Assembly (NCBI RefSeq): GCF_900103715.1
Contig: NZ_FNHL01000001.1
Span: 973,295 to 1,037,294 of the forward strand
From: Halogranum gelatinilyticum
GTDB taxonomy: Archaea > Halobacteriota > Halobacteria > Halobacteriales > Haloferacaceae
Reading direction: 5' to 3'
DNA: 64,000 nt
Below, piece by piece: positions 2,246-7,095 of the stretch; within the stretch, counting starts at the first letter, position 1, and each line of letters opens with the position of its first letter. Below the pieces are notes generated by a model. The model was not told the DNA's origin and did no database searches. It saw only the letters and a program-made list of their open reading frames with translations. Made by a program: the position numbers and the translations under genes.

Positions 2246-2256
2246 CGTGATTCACG
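2246..2256. promoter_or_regulatory. Perfect 11-bp palindrome (possible operator) at the predicted dapA transcription start
   Basis: CGTGA-T-TCACG is a perfect odd palindrome located 22 bp after the TATA-like box, where a repressor would block the start site. Lrp/AsnC-type regulators bind such short dyads, but nothing here identifies the regulator. Confidence 0.3.
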
Positions 2257-2316
2257 CCGTCGTTGCGTCGGGCACGCCCCGGACAACAGCGGCCGCGTTC
2301 GCTTTTCTCAAAAAAC

Positions 2317-2384
2317 GTCCGTAACCTCGCTCGCGGCAGGGGTGGCGACCCTGTCCCGGGTGAACCCCCGGCGGAGGTACGGAC
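2317..2384 (+). promoter_or_regulatory. Structured 5' leader of dapA: predicted three-way junction RNA
   Basis: The closing stem pairs 2317-2322 (GTCCGT) with 2379-2384 (ACGGAC), and 2324-2328 (ACCTC) with 2374-2378 (GAGGT), leaving a single A bulge at 2323. Inside it are two hairpins. One pairs CAGGG (2337-2341) with CCCTG (2349-2353). The other pairs CGGG (2357-2360) with CCCG (2367-2370). The element ends 30 nt before the dapA ATG. No known bacterial lysine riboswitch core is recognisable. A regulatory leader or riboswitch-like role is inferred from position and foldability alone. Confidence 0.4.
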
Positions 2385-2414
2385 ACGAGAGTACGACAAC
2401 CAGAGACAGGACAC

Positions 2415-3326
2415 ATGACACGCACACACTTCAACGGGGTCTATCCGGCGATGACGACGCCGTTCACCCCCGACGGCGACATCGACTTCGAACAGCTTCG
2501 AACGGACGCACAACGACTCGTGGACGCCGGTGTCGACGGGCTGGTCCCCGTCGGCTCGACCGGCGAGAGCGCGACGCTGACGCACGACGAACACGTGGAG
2601 GTGGTGGAGGCGGTCGTCGACGAGGTCGACGACGTCCCCGTCATCGCCGGTTCCGGCTCGAACTCCACGCGGGAGGCACTCGAACTCTCCAAGCGCTCGG
2701 CCGACGCCGGTGCCGACGCACTGCTTCTCATCTCACCCTACTACAACAAGCCCGAACCGGCCGGGATGTACGAGCACTACCGGACCATCGCCGACGAGGT
2801 CGACGTCCCCCAGATCGTCTACAACGTCCCCTCGCGGACGGGCCGCAACATCGCGGTCGACACCGTCGTCGAGCTCGCGAGCCACGAGAACATCGCGGGC
2901 TACAAGGCAGCCAGCGGCGACCTCAACCGCGTCTCGGAGGTCGTCGAACGCACGCGCGACGAGGCCTTCGACGTCCTCTCGGGCGACGACGGACTGACGC
3001 TGCCGGTCCTCTCGGTGGGCGGCACGGGTACCATCAGCGTCATCGCCAACATCGAACCCGAACGGACCTGCGCGCTCGTCGGTGCCGCGCTCGCGGGCGA
3101 CTACGACCGTGCGCGGGCCATCCACCACGAACTCGGCCCGCTGACCCGCCAGCTGTTCGTCGAGACCAACCCCATCCCGGTCAAGGAGGCGATGCAGATG
3201 CGCGGCCACGGCAGTGCCAGAATGCGGCCGCCGCTGTCGCGGCTCTCCGAACAGCACCGTGACCGGCTCCGACAGCTGCTCGCGGAACTCGAGGGCGACG
3301 TGGAACCCGTGGAGGCCGAGCGATGA
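2415..3326 (+). CDS. dapA: 4-hydroxy-tetrahydrodipicolinate synthase
   Basis: DapA condenses pyruvate with aspartate semialdehyde, the first committed step of lysine/diaminopimelate synthesis. The 303-aa length is normal for this TIM-barrel family. The phosphate-like loop GSTGES is at residues 47-52, Tyr136 is in VYNVPSRTG, and the Schiff-base lysine is Lys164 in AGYKAAS. It is the first gene of a plus-strand operon. Its stop overlaps the dapB start by 4 nt (ATGA), implying translational coupling. The ATG at 2415 follows the structured leader described above, and there is no Shine-Dalgarno sequence. Confidence 0.97.
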   Translation: MTRTHFNGVYPAMTTPFTPDGDIDFEQLRTDAQRLVDAGVDGLVPVGSTGESATLTHDEHVEVVEAVVDEVDDVPVIAGSGSNSTREALELSKRSADAGADALLLISPYYNKPEPAGMYEHYRTIADEVDVPQIVYNVPSRTGRNIAVDTVVELASHENIAGYKAASGDLNRVSEVVERTRDEAFDVLSGDDGLTLPVLSVGGTGTISVIANIEPERTCALVGAALAGDYDRARAIHHELGPLTRQLFVETNPIPVKEAMQMRGHGSARMRPPLSRLSEQHRDRLRQLLAELEGDVEPVEAER

Positions 3327-4084
3327 CACGCCTCGCGGTCACCGGCGCCGGCGGGCGCATGGGCCGCGAGGTCATCGAGGCCGCGAGCGAGCGCGAGGAC
3401 GTCGAGGTCGTCCTCGCCGTCAACCGCAGCGACGTCGACGCAGTCGCTGGCGTCGCCGTCGAGGACGCGGCCGACTTCGCGTCGCTCCTCGCCGAGCGCG
3501 ATCCGGACGTCGTCGTCGACTTCACCGGGCCCGAGTCCAGCCTCGACTACGTCGCCGCCTGCGCCGAGACCGGCGTCGCCGCCGTCGTCGGCACGACCGG
3601 CTTCGACGAAGACGGTGAGGCCGCACTCGACGACGCGAGCGAGTCGGTGCCGCTGCTCAAGGCGTCGAACTTCGCCCGCGGCGTCGCCGCCTTCCGGCAG
3701 GCCGTCCGCGAGGCGGTCGGCTCGCTGCCGGGCTACGACATCGAGGTGATGGAGACCCACCACAACGCGAAGCGCGACGCTCCCTCGGGAACGGCCAACA
3801 GTATCCTCGACGACATCGAAGAGGTCAGAGGAGACCTCACCCACCGGACCCACGGCCGCGAGGGCGACCAGCCCCGCGAGGAGGGCGAAGTCGGTGTCCA
3901 CGCCCGACGCGCGGGCGACATCACCGGCCAACACGAGGTGCTCGTCGCGGGCAACCACGAACTCCTCGAACTCACCCACCGCGCAGAGTCTCGGGGCGTC
4001 TTCGCCGAAGGCGCGCTCGACGCAGCAGTCTGGCTCGACGACCGCGACACCGGCCGCTACGACTTCTTCGACGTACTCAACTAA
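3323..4084 (+). CDS. dapB: 4-hydroxy-tetrahydrodipicolinate reductase
   Basis: DapB reduces hydroxy-tetrahydrodipicolinate with NAD(P)H. The Rossmann dinucleotide motif VTGAGGRMG lies at the N-terminus, followed by VVDFTGPESS and VVGTTGF. The catalytic/substrate region METHHNAKRDAPSGTA carries His146, His147 and Lys150. The C-terminal GVHARRAGDITGQHEV pattern is typical of the family. It has 253 aa and starts inside the dapA stop codon. The next gene follows after 21 nt. Confidence 0.97.
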   Translation: MTRLAVTGAGGRMGREVIEAASEREDVEVVLAVNRSDVDAVAGVAVEDAADFASLLAERDPDVVVDFTGPESSLDYVAACAETGVAAVVGTTGFDEDGEAALDDASESVPLLKASNFARGVAAFRQAVREAVGSLPGYDIEVMETHHNAKRDAPSGTANSILDDIEEVRGDLTHRTHGREGDQPREEGEVGVHARRAGDITGQHEVLVAGNHELLELTHRAESRGVFAEGALDAAVWLDDRDTGRYDFFDVLN

Positions 4085-4105
4085 CCACGCCTCAACTACC
4101 AACAC

Positions 4106-4948
4106 ATGACGCTCCAATCTGACGTATCCGACCTGTGGCACCAGTATCAGACCGACGACCTCGCCGCCGCCGACGCAGCCGACGCGCTCGACACGCTCGA
4201 CGAGTTCCTCGTCGCGCTCGAAGCGGGCGAGATCCGTGCCGCCGAAAACGACGGCGGCAGCGGTCCCGACGCCTGGACGGTCAACGAGTGGGTCAAGCAG
4301 GGGATTCTCCTCAACTTCGGCCTGCGCGAGACCGAACCGCGCGAGTACGGCGACGTCCGCTACCACGACGTGCTGCCGCTGCGCGACACGGCCGACCTCG
4401 CCGAGCGCGGAACACGCAACACACCCGATGGCACGACCATCCGACGCGGGGCCTACCTCGGCGAGGACTGCATCATGATGAGTCCCTCGTTCGTCAACAT
4501 CGGCGCGTACGTCGGCGACGGCACGCTCGTCGACTCCTGTGACACGGTCGGCTCCTGTGCGCAGATCGGTGAGGGCGTCAAGCTCGGCGCGAACACGCTC
4601 ATCGGCGGCGTCCTCGAACCCGTCGAGGACGCGCCGGTCATCGTCGAGGACGGCGTCTCGCTCGGTGCGGGCTGCCGCGTCACCTCGGGCTTCGTCGTCG
4701 GCGAGAACTCCATCGTCGGCGAAAATACGCTCCTGACGCCGCGCATCCCGGTCTACGACCTCGTCGAGGAGGAAGTCCTCTACGGCGAACTGCCGGCCGA
4801 GCGTCGCGCGTTCACACGCTTCGTCGAGTCCTCGCTCGGCGACCACGACCTGTTCGCCGGTGGCGCGTACAAGCCCGCCGTCGTCGCGCTCGACGTCGAG
4901 GAGGATACCATCGACGCGACCCGCCGCGAAGAAGCACTGCGAGAGTAA
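4106..4948 (+). CDS. dapD: 2,3,4,5-tetrahydropyridine-2,6-dicarboxylate N-succinyltransferase
   Basis: DapD transfers a succinyl group from succinyl-CoA to tetrahydrodipicolinate, which commits the pathway to the succinylase branch. The 280-aa protein has an N-terminal helical region. From about residue 105 it has hexapeptide-repeat sequence (isoleucine-patch strands such as GAYLGEDCIMMSPSFVNIGAYV and VIVEDGVSLGAGC) that builds a left-handed beta helix. The companion deacylase dapE is the last gene of the same operon, which supports the succinyl rather than acetyl assignment. It abuts lysA directly. Confidence 0.93.
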   Translation: MTLQSDVSDLWHQYQTDDLAAADAADALDTLDEFLVALEAGEIRAAENDGGSGPDAWTVNEWVKQGILLNFGLRETEPREYGDVRYHDVLPLRDTADLAERGTRNTPDGTTIRRGAYLGEDCIMMSPSFVNIGAYVGDGTLVDSCDTVGSCAQIGEGVKLGANTLIGGVLEPVEDAPVIVEDGVSLGAGCRVTSGFVVGENSIVGENTLLTPRIPVYDLVEEEVLYGELPAERRAFTRFVESSLGDHDLFAGGAYKPAVVALDVEEDTIDATRREEALRE

Positions 4949-6214
4949 ATGTCCGAAAACCCCGACGTCCGGCGGCTGGCAGACTGGGACGGCGAGTCCC
5001 TGCGAGCCTTGGCTGCGGAGCACGACACGCCGCTGTACGTGATGGACTTAGACCGGGTGCGCGAGAACTGCGAGCGGCTCAAGTCGGCGTTCCCGGACGA
5101 GGAGGTCCGCTACGCCGTCAAGGCCCACACCGGCCGCGCCGTCCTCGAAACAGTCCGCGAGGCCGGACTCGCCGCCGAGTGCGCCTCGGCGGGTGAAGTG
5201 ATGCGCGCATTCGATGCGGGCTACGAGGGCCACGAGGTCCAGTACACCGCCGTCAACCCGCCCGCCGTCGACCTCGACTACGTGGTCGACGCGTGGGAGG
5301 AACATCCCGACCTCACCATCACCGTCGGCGCGGCCGACACGGTCGACCGCCTGCGCGAGCGCGGCTTCGACGGCCGACTCTGTGTGCGAGTGAATCCGGG
5401 TGTCGGGGCGGGCCACCACGAGAAGGTCCAGACCGGCGCGAACGCCAAGTTCGGCGTCCCGTACGACCGGGTGCCGGACCTACTCGCCGAGGCCCGAGAA
5501 GACTTCGACGTCGTCGGTATCCACGCCCACGCCGGCAGCGGCATTTCTGGAGATGACCTCGAGAACCACCGCGAACTCGTCCGGCGGATGGGCGAGTTGG
5601 CCCGCGACGTCGGCGAGCTGGAGTTCGTCGACGTCGGCGGCGGCTTCGGTGTCCCGTACCACGAGGACGAACCGCCGCTGGATCTTGAGGCCGTCGCCGA
5701 CGCGACGCGGGAGGCCATCGGCGACATCGACGCAACGCTCGCGGTCGAACCCGGCCGCTACGTCGTCGCCGACGCGGGCGTCCTGCTCACGCGGGTCAAC
5801 ACCGTCAAGCCGGCCGACGACACGACCGTCGTCGGCATCGACGCGGGGATGACTACGCTGCTCCGCCCCGCGATGTACGGCTCGTATCACGCGCTCGCAA
5901 ACCTGAGTGCTGCCGAGGCCGACGGAGCCGACGGAGCCGACGGAGCCGACGACGACCGCGTGGCAATACCTGTCACCGTCACCGGCCCTATTTGCGAGAG
6001 CAGTGACGTACTGTGTGAAGACCGCCCACTGCCGCGGCCAGCCCGTGGCGACCTGTTCGCGATCGGTAACGCCGGTGCCTACGGCTACGAGATGGCAAGC
6101 ACCTACAACTCGCGGCCCCGACCGGCGGAAGTCGCACTCGAGTCCGGTGACTCCCGACTCGTCCGCCGACGTGAGCAGTTATGCGAACTGACCGAGCTGG
6201 AGGACCACGTATGA
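4949..6214 (+). CDS. lysA: Diaminopimelate decarboxylase
   Basis: LysA is the PLP enzyme that decarboxylates meso-diaminopimelate to L-lysine. The PLP lysine is Lys58 in VRYAVKAHTG. The family motifs HAHAGSGI, DVGGGFGVPY, EPGRYVVADAG and GPICESSDVL (active-site Cys at the dimer interface) are in order. The protein has 421 aa. A short Ala-Asp-Gly repeat (GADGADGAD, bases about 5925-5950) sits in a surface loop before the CESSD motif and looks like a lineage-specific insertion. The start is immediately after the dapD stop. The stop overlaps the dapF ATG by 4 nt. Confidence 0.96.
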   Translation: MSENPDVRRLADWDGESLRALAAEHDTPLYVMDLDRVRENCERLKSAFPDEEVRYAVKAHTGRAVLETVREAGLAAECASAGEVMRAFDAGYEGHEVQYTAVNPPAVDLDYVVDAWEEHPDLTITVGAADTVDRLRERGFDGRLCVRVNPGVGAGHHEKVQTGANAKFGVPYDRVPDLLAEAREDFDVVGIHAHAGSGISGDDLENHRELVRRMGELARDVGELEFVDVGGGFGVPYHEDEPPLDLEAVADATREAIGDIDATLAVEPGRYVVADAGVLLTRVNTVKPADDTTVVGIDAGMTTLLRPAMYGSYHALANLSAAEADGADGADGADDDRVAIPVTVTGPICESSDVLCEDRPLPRPARGDLFAIGNAGAYGYEMASTYNSRPRPAEVALESGDSRLVRRREQLCELTELEDHV

Positions 6215-7095
6215 GTTTACAAGCAGACCCCACTGTCTCTTTCGAGAAGTACCACGGAACGAGTAACGACTTCGTCATCGTCGACGCCGACGAGTTCGTC
6301 CCGAACCGCTACGCCTTCGCGACCACCTACTGCGACCGCGAGGGCGGCGTCGGCGTCGACCTCGACATCGGTCCCGACGGCCATATCGGCGCGGACGGCG
6401 TGCTCTTTCTCGCCTTAGAGGAGAAGTATTCGCCACCGCGCGTCATCATGACGCTCGTCCAGCCCGACGGCTCGACGGCCGCGATGTGCGGCAACGGCGC
6501 GCGCTGTGCCGCCGCGTGGGCCGCCGAACGGACCGGCGCGAGCGAGGTCATGGTCGACACGCAGGCGGGCACCCGCCACGCCACCGTCGACGGTGCGGAC
6601 ATCACTATCGAGATGGGCGTGCCGTCGTTCGAGCCGCGAGACGTGCCGCTGGCCCGCGACGAACCGCTCGTCGACGAGGACGTCGAAGGCCTGCGAGTGA
6701 CGGCCGTCAACACGGGCGTCCCCCACGCCGTCGCGTTCGTCGACGACGTCGACGACGTCGACCTCGAAGCCGTCGCTCCCCCTGTCCGTCACGCGGACGT
6801 CTTCCCCGAGGGCGCGAACGTGAACGTCGCCTCGGTAGGCGAGGACGGCATCCGACAGCGGACCTTCGAGCGCGGCGTCGAGGGCGAGACCCAGTCCTGC
6901 GGTACCGGCGCGGTCGCCATCGTCGCCGCCGCGAAGCGGCTCGGACTCGTCGACGCGAACGAGCCGGTCACCGTCAGCCCGCCCGGCGGCGACCTCGAAA
7001 TCACCGTCCCGGACGACGCGCCCGCGACGCTCCGTGGTCCCGTCGCCCACGAGTTCGCCGGCGAACTCGCCCGCGACCCGTCGGCCGACCAGTGA
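6211..7095 (+). CDS. dapF: Diaminopimelate epimerase
   Basis: DapF interconverts LL- and meso-diaminopimelate without a cofactor, using two cysteines. Both are present: Cys93 in MCGNGARC and Cys229 in ETQSCGTGA. The N-terminal FEKYHGTSNDFVIVD is canonical. I chose the ATG at 6211 (MSLQADPTVS), which overlaps the lysA stop as ATGA, rather than an upstream ATG at 6181 that would lie inside lysA. This gives 294 aa. Its stop again overlaps the next start (GTGA). Confidence 0.95.
   Translation: MSLQADPTVSFEKYHGTSNDFVIVDADEFVPNRYAFATTYCDREGGVGVDLDIGPDGHIGADGVLFLALEEKYSPPRVIMTLVQPDGSTAAMCGNGARCAAAWAAERTGASEVMVDTQAGTRHATVDGADITIEMGVPSFEPRDVPLARDEPLVDEDVEGLRVTAVNTGVPHAVAFVDDVDDVDLEAVAPPVRHADVFPEGANVNVASVGEDGIRQRTFERGVEGETQSCGTGAVAIVAAAKRLGLVDANEPVTVSPPGGDLEITVPDDAPATLRGPVAHEFAGELARDPSADQ

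Follow-up and report, generated by a model that had tools for sequence, protein, structure and literature searches.

A lysine-codon leader ORF and conserved hairpin ahead of haloarchaeal dapA suggest ribosome-mediated attenuation in Archaea

The lysine operon and its upstream region

The window analyzed here is a 64,000-nt stretch of the Halogranum gelatinilyticum genome (contig NZ_FNHL01000001.1, positions 973,295 to 1,037,294), and the features of the window described below lie on its plus strand. The genes for lysine synthesis through diaminopimelate were found in the order dapA-dapB-dapD-lysA-dapF. The first gene, dapA (2415–3326, ATG at 2415), matched TIGR00674 above cut-off, and the rest of the operon (3323–7095) matched TIGR00036 (dapB), NF008808 (dapD), TIGR01048 (lysA), and TIGR00652 (dapF), also above cut-off. 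A previous sequence-only reading had proposed a structured, untranslated leader RNA (2246–2414) ahead of a biosynthetic operon, and the position of dapA at the operon head bore out this placement. In PMC8305020, HVO_1101 is given as dapA and Halobacterium salinarum as lacking lysine synthesis.

The previously described three-way fold was also present, with a closing stem of 11 bp and one bulge (2317–2328 with 2374–2384) that encloses two GC-rich hairpins. However, the folding energy of 2246–2414 was no better than that of shuffled sequences (z = −0.07; 93 of 200 shuffles folded as well), so that single-sequence folding was dropped as evidence for structure and comparison with relatives was needed.

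The region had been said not to be the bacterial lysine riboswitch, in agreement with the lack of an RF00168 match in the window at E ≤ 5. Neither the lysine riboswitch nor any other relevant Rfam family was found in the window, and none reached the gathering score in seven relatives and the sister loci. The T-box model RF00230 likewise gave no match in the window, the seven relatives and the sister loci. These covariance-model searches excluded RF00168 or any other Rfam family as the identity of the region.

A leader ORF with tandem lysine codons

The leader contains an upstream ORF (uORF) that the sequence-only reading had missed. It occupies 2247–2324, starts with GTG, has 25 codons, encodes MIHAVVASGTPRTTAAAFAFLKKRP, and stops with TAA. 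Close to its end are two tandem Lys codons, AAA AAA (2310–2315), followed by CGT CCG TAA, and the peptide thus ends in Lys-Lys-Arg-Pro.

A DapA scan of genome contigs yielded 77 loci, of which 74 were haloarchaeal; together with the window, 75 haloarchaeal dapA loci were available. The bacterial loci L073, L074, and L076 were dropped, as was L061, which has no P2 core (see below). Comparable uORFs were assigned in 74 of the 75 haloarchaeal loci, the remaining one being L061. Their start codons were ATG in 51 and GTG in 23 loci. Lys accounted for 8.1% of the uORF codons, compared to 1.06% of the first 290 dapA codons in the same 74 loci, and codon choice was reversed, with AAA:AAG ratios of 154:16 in the uORFs and 10:217 in dapA (p = 3 × 10^-77, Fisher test). 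Of the 74 uORFs, 71 had at least two Lys among their last 18 residues. The arrangement of these residues varied (KKR, KRKR, KSKKR, KSKPKPKR, KAGKRKRKR), while lysine itself was retained. In three of the 74 uORFs only a single Lys was left, which we counted against attenuation as the function of the leader.

Because the first assignment was weighted toward Lys-containing frames, the search was repeated blind to residues, using promoter and length only. Lys was again the most enriched residue (12.8-fold), and Phe (3.3-fold) and Arg (2.2-fold) were enriched as well. By this selection a uORF was found in 58 of 75 loci and carried at least two Lys in 46 of the 58; the 17 loci with no uORF and the 12 uORFs with fewer than two Lys also weigh against attenuation.

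The body of the peptide is only mildly constrained (pN/pS of 0.60 over 19 disjoint pairs), which was counted against attenuation. The frame is kept and the sequence only loosely so, as would be expected of a sensor peptide more than of an arrest peptide. In the latter case, which resembles TnaC or SpeFL, the basic tail F-S-K-K-R, perhaps together with free lysine, would stall the ribosome in the exit tunnel, and the signal would be a contact among peptide, tunnel, and ligand rather than empty tRNA-Lys. The recurrence of Phe or Ser ahead of the basic tail and of Arg beside Lys, with the Phe and Arg enrichments given above, counts in favor of such a peptide. We nevertheless consider it unlikely: the Lys residues are free to change in spacing and order, the stop codon can fall many codons later (Halobacterium, Natrinema, Halarchaeum), the preference for AAA over AAG concerns the codon and not the residue, pN/pS is 0.60, and leaders at Ile/Val, Phe, and Trp genes match codons in the same way (see below).

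A −1 frameshift at AAAAAA was rejected by inspection, as many loci read AAA CGN AAA. In six loci (L005, L006, L058, L064, L068, and L070) the uORF continues into hairpin P2 and stops at a TAG in the hairpin loop (GCG TAG C), showing that the stop codon can fall inside P2.

Promoter and start of translation

A TATA-like element, TTATAATA (2216–2223), begins 31 nt ahead of the uORF start codon. Over 74 loci, the AT content relative to the uORF start was 0.97, 0.96, and 0.88 at −28, −27, and −26, and 0.91 and 0.81 at the BRE-like positions −34 and −33. The same profile showed no promoter-like AT peak upstream of the dapA start. Since the promoter is phased to the uORF start and most haloarchaeal mRNAs are leaderless according to PMC4983044, translation very probably begins with the uORF, on a leaderless transcript.

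This bears on the earlier argument from a leader of unusual length. About 170 nt do lie between the only good promoter and the dapA ATG, but most of this is uORF, ahead of which the transcript probably has no leader, so that the argument fails. According to PMC4983044, mutating leaderless AUG starts to GUG led to very weak translation, although 118 native leaderless GUG transcripts exist. Given this weak translation, the GTG starts of 23 of the 74 uORFs, that of the window among them, were counted against attenuation.

Conserved hairpins in the leader

The strongest conservation was found in an inner hairpin, here P2 (2329–2361), and not in the closing stem. P2 is of the type GCUCG.GGCGGG NGURGCGA CCCGUC.CGGGY and lies right after, or around, the uORF stop codon. 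In an alignment from which rows identical over the aligned stretch (L052 and L071) had been removed, 87.7% of the cells paired (72 distinct sequences). Two-sided changes occurred at seven of the 12 pairs, amounting to 32 cells versus 10.4 in shuffles (0/500 shuffles reached this number), and the hairpin folded well, with a mean z of −2.66 (73 loci).

One G-U pair and the adjacent C-G pair were each invariant in 72 of 72 sequences, and the loop GURGC was conserved. The G-U pair lies at about 2336 with 2354 (alignment columns 68 and 86), and it and the C-G beside it are conserved beyond what pairing needs, a possible sign of a protein or tertiary contact. Such conservation, far above that of a plain attenuator stem, is also the main point in favor of P2 being a stand-alone cis element, either a protein-binding hairpin or a small-molecule riboswitch, with the uORF incidental or merely protecting the 5' end. 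That possibility seems slightly more doubtful still than an arrest peptide, as it leaves unexplained the Lys enrichment, the AAA bias, the promoter spacing, and the fixed distance between Lys codons and P2, as well as the codon-matched uORFs at other operons, where the RNA elements are different.

A second hairpin, P0 (2254–2298), lies within the uORF and is likely an RNA polymerase pause or pacing hairpin. The uORF bodies folded better than their shuffles (mean z of −1.50 over 73 distinct bodies; p = 7 × 10^-11, Wilcoxon test). In 23 gapless rows from other loci with uORFs of 26 codons, 86.5% of the cells of the P0 stem paired compared to 81.3% in shuffles (0/500), and 13 two-sided changes were seen compared to 3.5 in shuffles (0/500). 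Between P0 and the Lys codons is a U-rich stretch, TTTTCTC (2303–2309); over 74 loci, the T content was 34% in the 14 nt ahead of the first Lys codon and 16% elsewhere in the uORF. By analogy, P0 and the U-rich stretch resemble a bacterial pause hairpin.

The closing stem of the fold, P1, pairs 2317–2328, which overlaps the Arg, Pro, and stop codons of the uORF, with 2374–2384. The 3' codons of the uORF thus double as the 5' strand of P1. Covariation and conservation of the stem had been proposed as a check on the fold. Both P2 and P0 covary, but P1 was conserved only moderately, with a mean z of −1.09 over 74 loci compared to −0.54 and −0.32 for two controls. The window shows it clearly, as do relatives including L001, L002, L048, and L052. 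As the candidate OFF stem, its weak conservation was counted against attenuation. A competing hairpin on the 3' arm of P2 was present in the window and close relatives and absent from most of the other loci inspected.

Ribosome geometry and a proposed mechanism

The positions of the Lys codons, the stop codon, and P2 were compared with the leading edge of the ribosome assumed to lie 13 nt from the A-site codon. P2 was free in all 74 loci when the ribosome was placed on the first Lys codon and in 73 of 74 when it was placed on the last, but in none at the stop codon, where the ribosome overlapped it in 74 of 74. Footprints of 11–14 nt gave identical counts, and at 15–16 nt P2 was free at the last Lys codon in 70–71 of the 74 loci. 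With footprints of 17 and 18 nt, these numbers dropped to 37 and 20 of 74, which speaks against attenuation. The Lys codons are placed just beyond the reach of P2 and the stop codon just within it.

Taken from comparative sequence data, the structured region appears to be a real, conserved regulatory leader, re-identified here as a lysine leader peptide with an RNA switch that the ribosome would read; the comparative evidence for the sensor is strong. We consider it quite probable that the dap leader mediates attenuation by the ribosome through a lysine leader peptide that senses charged tRNA-Lys, in an archaeon. Its sensor part, consisting of the uORF, the Lys and AAA enrichment, the promoter spacing, the covariation of P2 and P0, and the geometry, is well supported. 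As the leader ORF appears to be translated and carries lysine codons, what is sensed is most likely charged tRNA-Lys, by way of the ribosome, and not a free ligand. Control by lysine or a pathway intermediate had been suggested earlier. Lysine is indeed the likely signal, and the region is conserved, structured, and probably regulatory, but the comparative data favor a translated leader ORF over a self-folding, ligand-binding RNA.

Translation of the uORF, the response to lysine, and the direction of the switch are inferred as follows. Transcription would begin at the uORF start codon or directly beside it, as the promoter position suggests, and ribosomes would load on the leaderless 5' end. 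In the manner of bacterial pause hairpins, P0 and the U-rich stretch that follows would hold RNA polymerase back long enough for the ribosome to draw level. Under a shortage of charged tRNA-Lys, the ribosome would wait at the AAA codons, covering the 5' strand of P1 and leaving P2 unhindered; P2 would then fold alone and the operon would be ON. When lysine is plentiful, the ribosome would reach the stop codon, and its front would invade the outer arm of P2, exposing the C-rich 3' arm and the spacer. After release of the ribosome at the stop codon, the P1–P2 junction could form, and the operon would be OFF.

The spacer between P2 and dapA (2362–2414 in the window) is rich in C and A, with 39% C, 27% A, 22% G, and 12% T over 74 loci, and has a mean fold z of ~0. 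No conserved U-run terminator was found, as T-runs of at least four after P2 were present in only nine of the 74 loci. With U-runs mostly missing and the spacer unstructured, a classical intrinsic terminator, with a GC hairpin and U-run ahead of dapA, was rejected as the output. The classical final step of attenuation is thus absent, which we counted against it. FttA/aCPSF1 is used in archaea instead of Rho, and our preference for the OFF output is factor-dependent termination on C-rich RNA, with blocked dapA translation or mRNA decay as alternatives. For Haloferax, PMC7237163 describes termination at T stretches and an AGATC motif, and also at a hairpin in one case that was tested.

The same sensor could instead have a purely translational output or act through mRNA stability, with uORF occupancy and the P1–P2 junction controlling ribosome access to dapA or decay, and elongation unaffected. 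This would be consistent with the missing U-runs and the unstructured C/A-rich spacer, and we regard it as possible, though the less likely output. Against it, 46–245 nt separate P2 from the dapA start wherever a P2 core is present, inspection of the window by eye showed neither a Shine-Dalgarno sequence nor sequestration of the start codon, and P0 together with the U-rich stretch points to polymerase coupling.

Comparison with known regulatory systems

Attenuation by amino acids is a textbook case of bacterial regulation and depends on close coupling of transcription and translation; bacterial attenuators with leader peptides include trpL, hisL, leuL, thrL, pheL, and those of the ilvL/ilvB type. 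The dap leader resembles these in general layout, with a short ORF at the predicted transcript start, tandem codons for the amino acid of the operon, and rare codons. It would also share with them hairpins chosen by a waiting or a finished ribosome, and a hairpin inside the leader ORF region. Unlike the bacterial systems, it has an archaeal host, a BRE/TATA promoter, a probably leaderless ORF with no Shine-Dalgarno sequence, a single hairpin highly conserved in sequence (with its invariant G-U), and no recognizable U-run terminator. Its target, lysine, differs as well; lysine control in bacteria is usually exerted by a riboswitch. The lysine riboswitch RF00168 has a similar place ahead of lysine biosynthesis genes, while the dap leader has a translated ORF and does not match the model. 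In Rho-dependent leader-peptide systems such as tnaC, the position of the ribosome could similarly decide whether a termination factor reaches the unstructured, C-rich RNA that follows the uORF. The dap leader, however, would rely on codon identity and not on an arrest peptide responding to a free ligand, and the archaeal factor would be FttA/aCPSF1 and not Rho.

In the open literature, judged by titles and the beginnings of abstracts and with subscription papers and preprints outside this coverage, no report of leader-peptide attenuation in archaea was found. A lysine leader-peptide layout in archaea has thus apparently not been described before. Table 2 of PMC4983044 lists uORFs in long 5'-UTRs of Haloferax volcanii, including those of a tryptophan--tRNA ligase and pheS. 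dapA is missing from that table, which was counted against attenuation.

Distribution of the leader

At E ≤ 0.1, a covariance model of P2 (R1) found a match in 369 of the 391 genomes searched in the class, although part of this count is true by construction, since R1 was built on 72 sequences whose genomes partly overlap the 391. dapA was directly downstream in all of the 30 best-scoring loci, and the element is effectively single copy and adjoins dapA. The next R1 matches in the genome of the window (E = 0.011 and 0.029) sit in long open frames and were taken as chance, so further copies were rejected. In a phylum-wide sample, R1 matched 16 of 120 genomes, all 16 from the order to which the window belongs.

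Among 20 unmatched genomes examined, dapB was missing in three. The leaders of the 17 with dapB were inspected apart from L141, which is at a contig edge, and L140, L144, L146, and L149, which carry dapA on the minus strand of the locus. Five (L139, L142, L143, L147, and L151) had a diverged, KR-rich uORF and a re-paired hairpin. The Haloquadratum-like L145 and L152 kept Lys-Arg codons and the hairpin; their start codon was not clear, and no in-frame ATG or GTG was found in these two leaders. Only a hairpin-like stretch was seen in L148, and a hairpin with no Lys in L154. By inspection, L138, L150, and L153 had no leader upstream of dapA, which again counts against attenuation. In L145 and L152 the Lys codons of the leader are AAG (e.g., AAGCGCAAGCGTAAGCGT), though their dapA genes use mostly AAA (AAA:AAG of 4:0 and 4:1), the opposite of other genomes; the numbers are small.

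Codon-matched leaders at other operons

Leaders of similar layout were found ahead of other genes. At ilvB, uORFs ending in LIIVGV, AIIVGA, or RIVGAL were present in 24 of 30 loci by residue-guided selection; blind to residues, a uORF was found in 13 of 30, with at least two Ile in eight of the 13. An inverted repeat, GTAGGGG...CCCCT(AC), surrounded the uORF stop in 21 of the 24 loci. At pheS, residue-guided selection gave uORFs with a GFGFFF-like end in 20 of 30 loci, and residue-blind selection gave uORFs in 21 of 30, of which 19 had at least two Phe. Ahead of the second trpS, uORFs with at least two Trp, e.g., WRWR, were present in eight of 13 loci (L246–L257 and L259); the residue-blind search found a uORF in five of 12 loci, with at least two Trp in two of these five. 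Rare codons were favored in the leaders, with ATT used for 33 of 43 Ile versus 30 of 324, and TTT for 21 of 72 Phe versus 23 of 340. GTA accounted for 34 of 68 Val codons in the ilvB leaders versus 5 of 616, which may be partly forced by the inverted repeat.

Three further genes showed no such pattern. At hisG, residue-blind selection found a promoter-anchored uORF in only three of 30 loci, none of them with two His, and histidine control of this kind was rejected. uORFs with at least two Trp were found within ~1.4 kb upstream of trpE in two of 30 loci, and a Trp uORF was found at the first trpS in three of 16 loci, which was not consistent.

By inspection, the ilv and phe RNA elements are unlike P2. 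As the RNA elements differ between operons, the common feature is the codon logic. A chance ORF in a GC-rich leader, or a DNA-level regulator acting on palindromes, would account for little of this and is very unlikely. P2 and the ilv repeat are indeed inverted repeats, as a DNA operator might be, but an operator needs neither compensatory changes nor pairs kept as G-U. A chance ORF would not be matched to four operons in Lys, Ile/Val, Phe, and Trp, would not recur in nearly every dapA locus, and would not be in phase with the promoter.

We lean, with less assurance than for the dap leader itself, toward a general haloarchaeal attenuation system of a kind so far unknown in Archaea, in which leaderless mini-ORFs with codon-matched ends (Lys at dap, Ile/Val at ilv, Phe at pheS, and Trp at the second trpS) would sense charged tRNAs through a coupled ribosome, with a decision that needs no terminator and probably depends on a factor. 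Given that the RNA elements vary from operon to operon and that the dap element was found only in the order of the window, haloarchaea would have invented the bacterial trick independently, on leaderless mRNA. The gene kinds in Table 2 of PMC4983044 overlap those with Trp- and Phe-rich leaders here, and the passages that give the list carry no peptide sequences, residue bias, or attenuation. If the proposal is true, an attenuation layout at four operon types in haloarchaea would show that ribosomes and polymerases of archaea are coupled tightly enough for computation, and a function would be given to uORFs already seen in Haloferax transcriptomes. The leader offers a genetic assay for premature termination in archaea, and what appeared to be a riboswitch candidate becomes directly testable by codon swap in an archaeon that is tractable in the laboratory.

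Leaders of these kinds are also present in the genome of the window. Its ilvB locus (L206, of the family L186–L215) has a leaderless-type uORF, MTQSVAARGSALTASDAVVRTLIIVGAA, ending in Ile-Ile-Val codons. At pheS (L227, of the family L216–L245), the uORF MTSESDVVTPVRRATTSGFGFFFDA is followed by a conserved-looking element, GGTGGACTC...GAAACCG. The second trpS (L247) is preceded by a Trp-rich uORF, MQSAPDCRCWRWWPHVSGADSLVVARAVA, and other loci of this gene read WRWR..PGADS.
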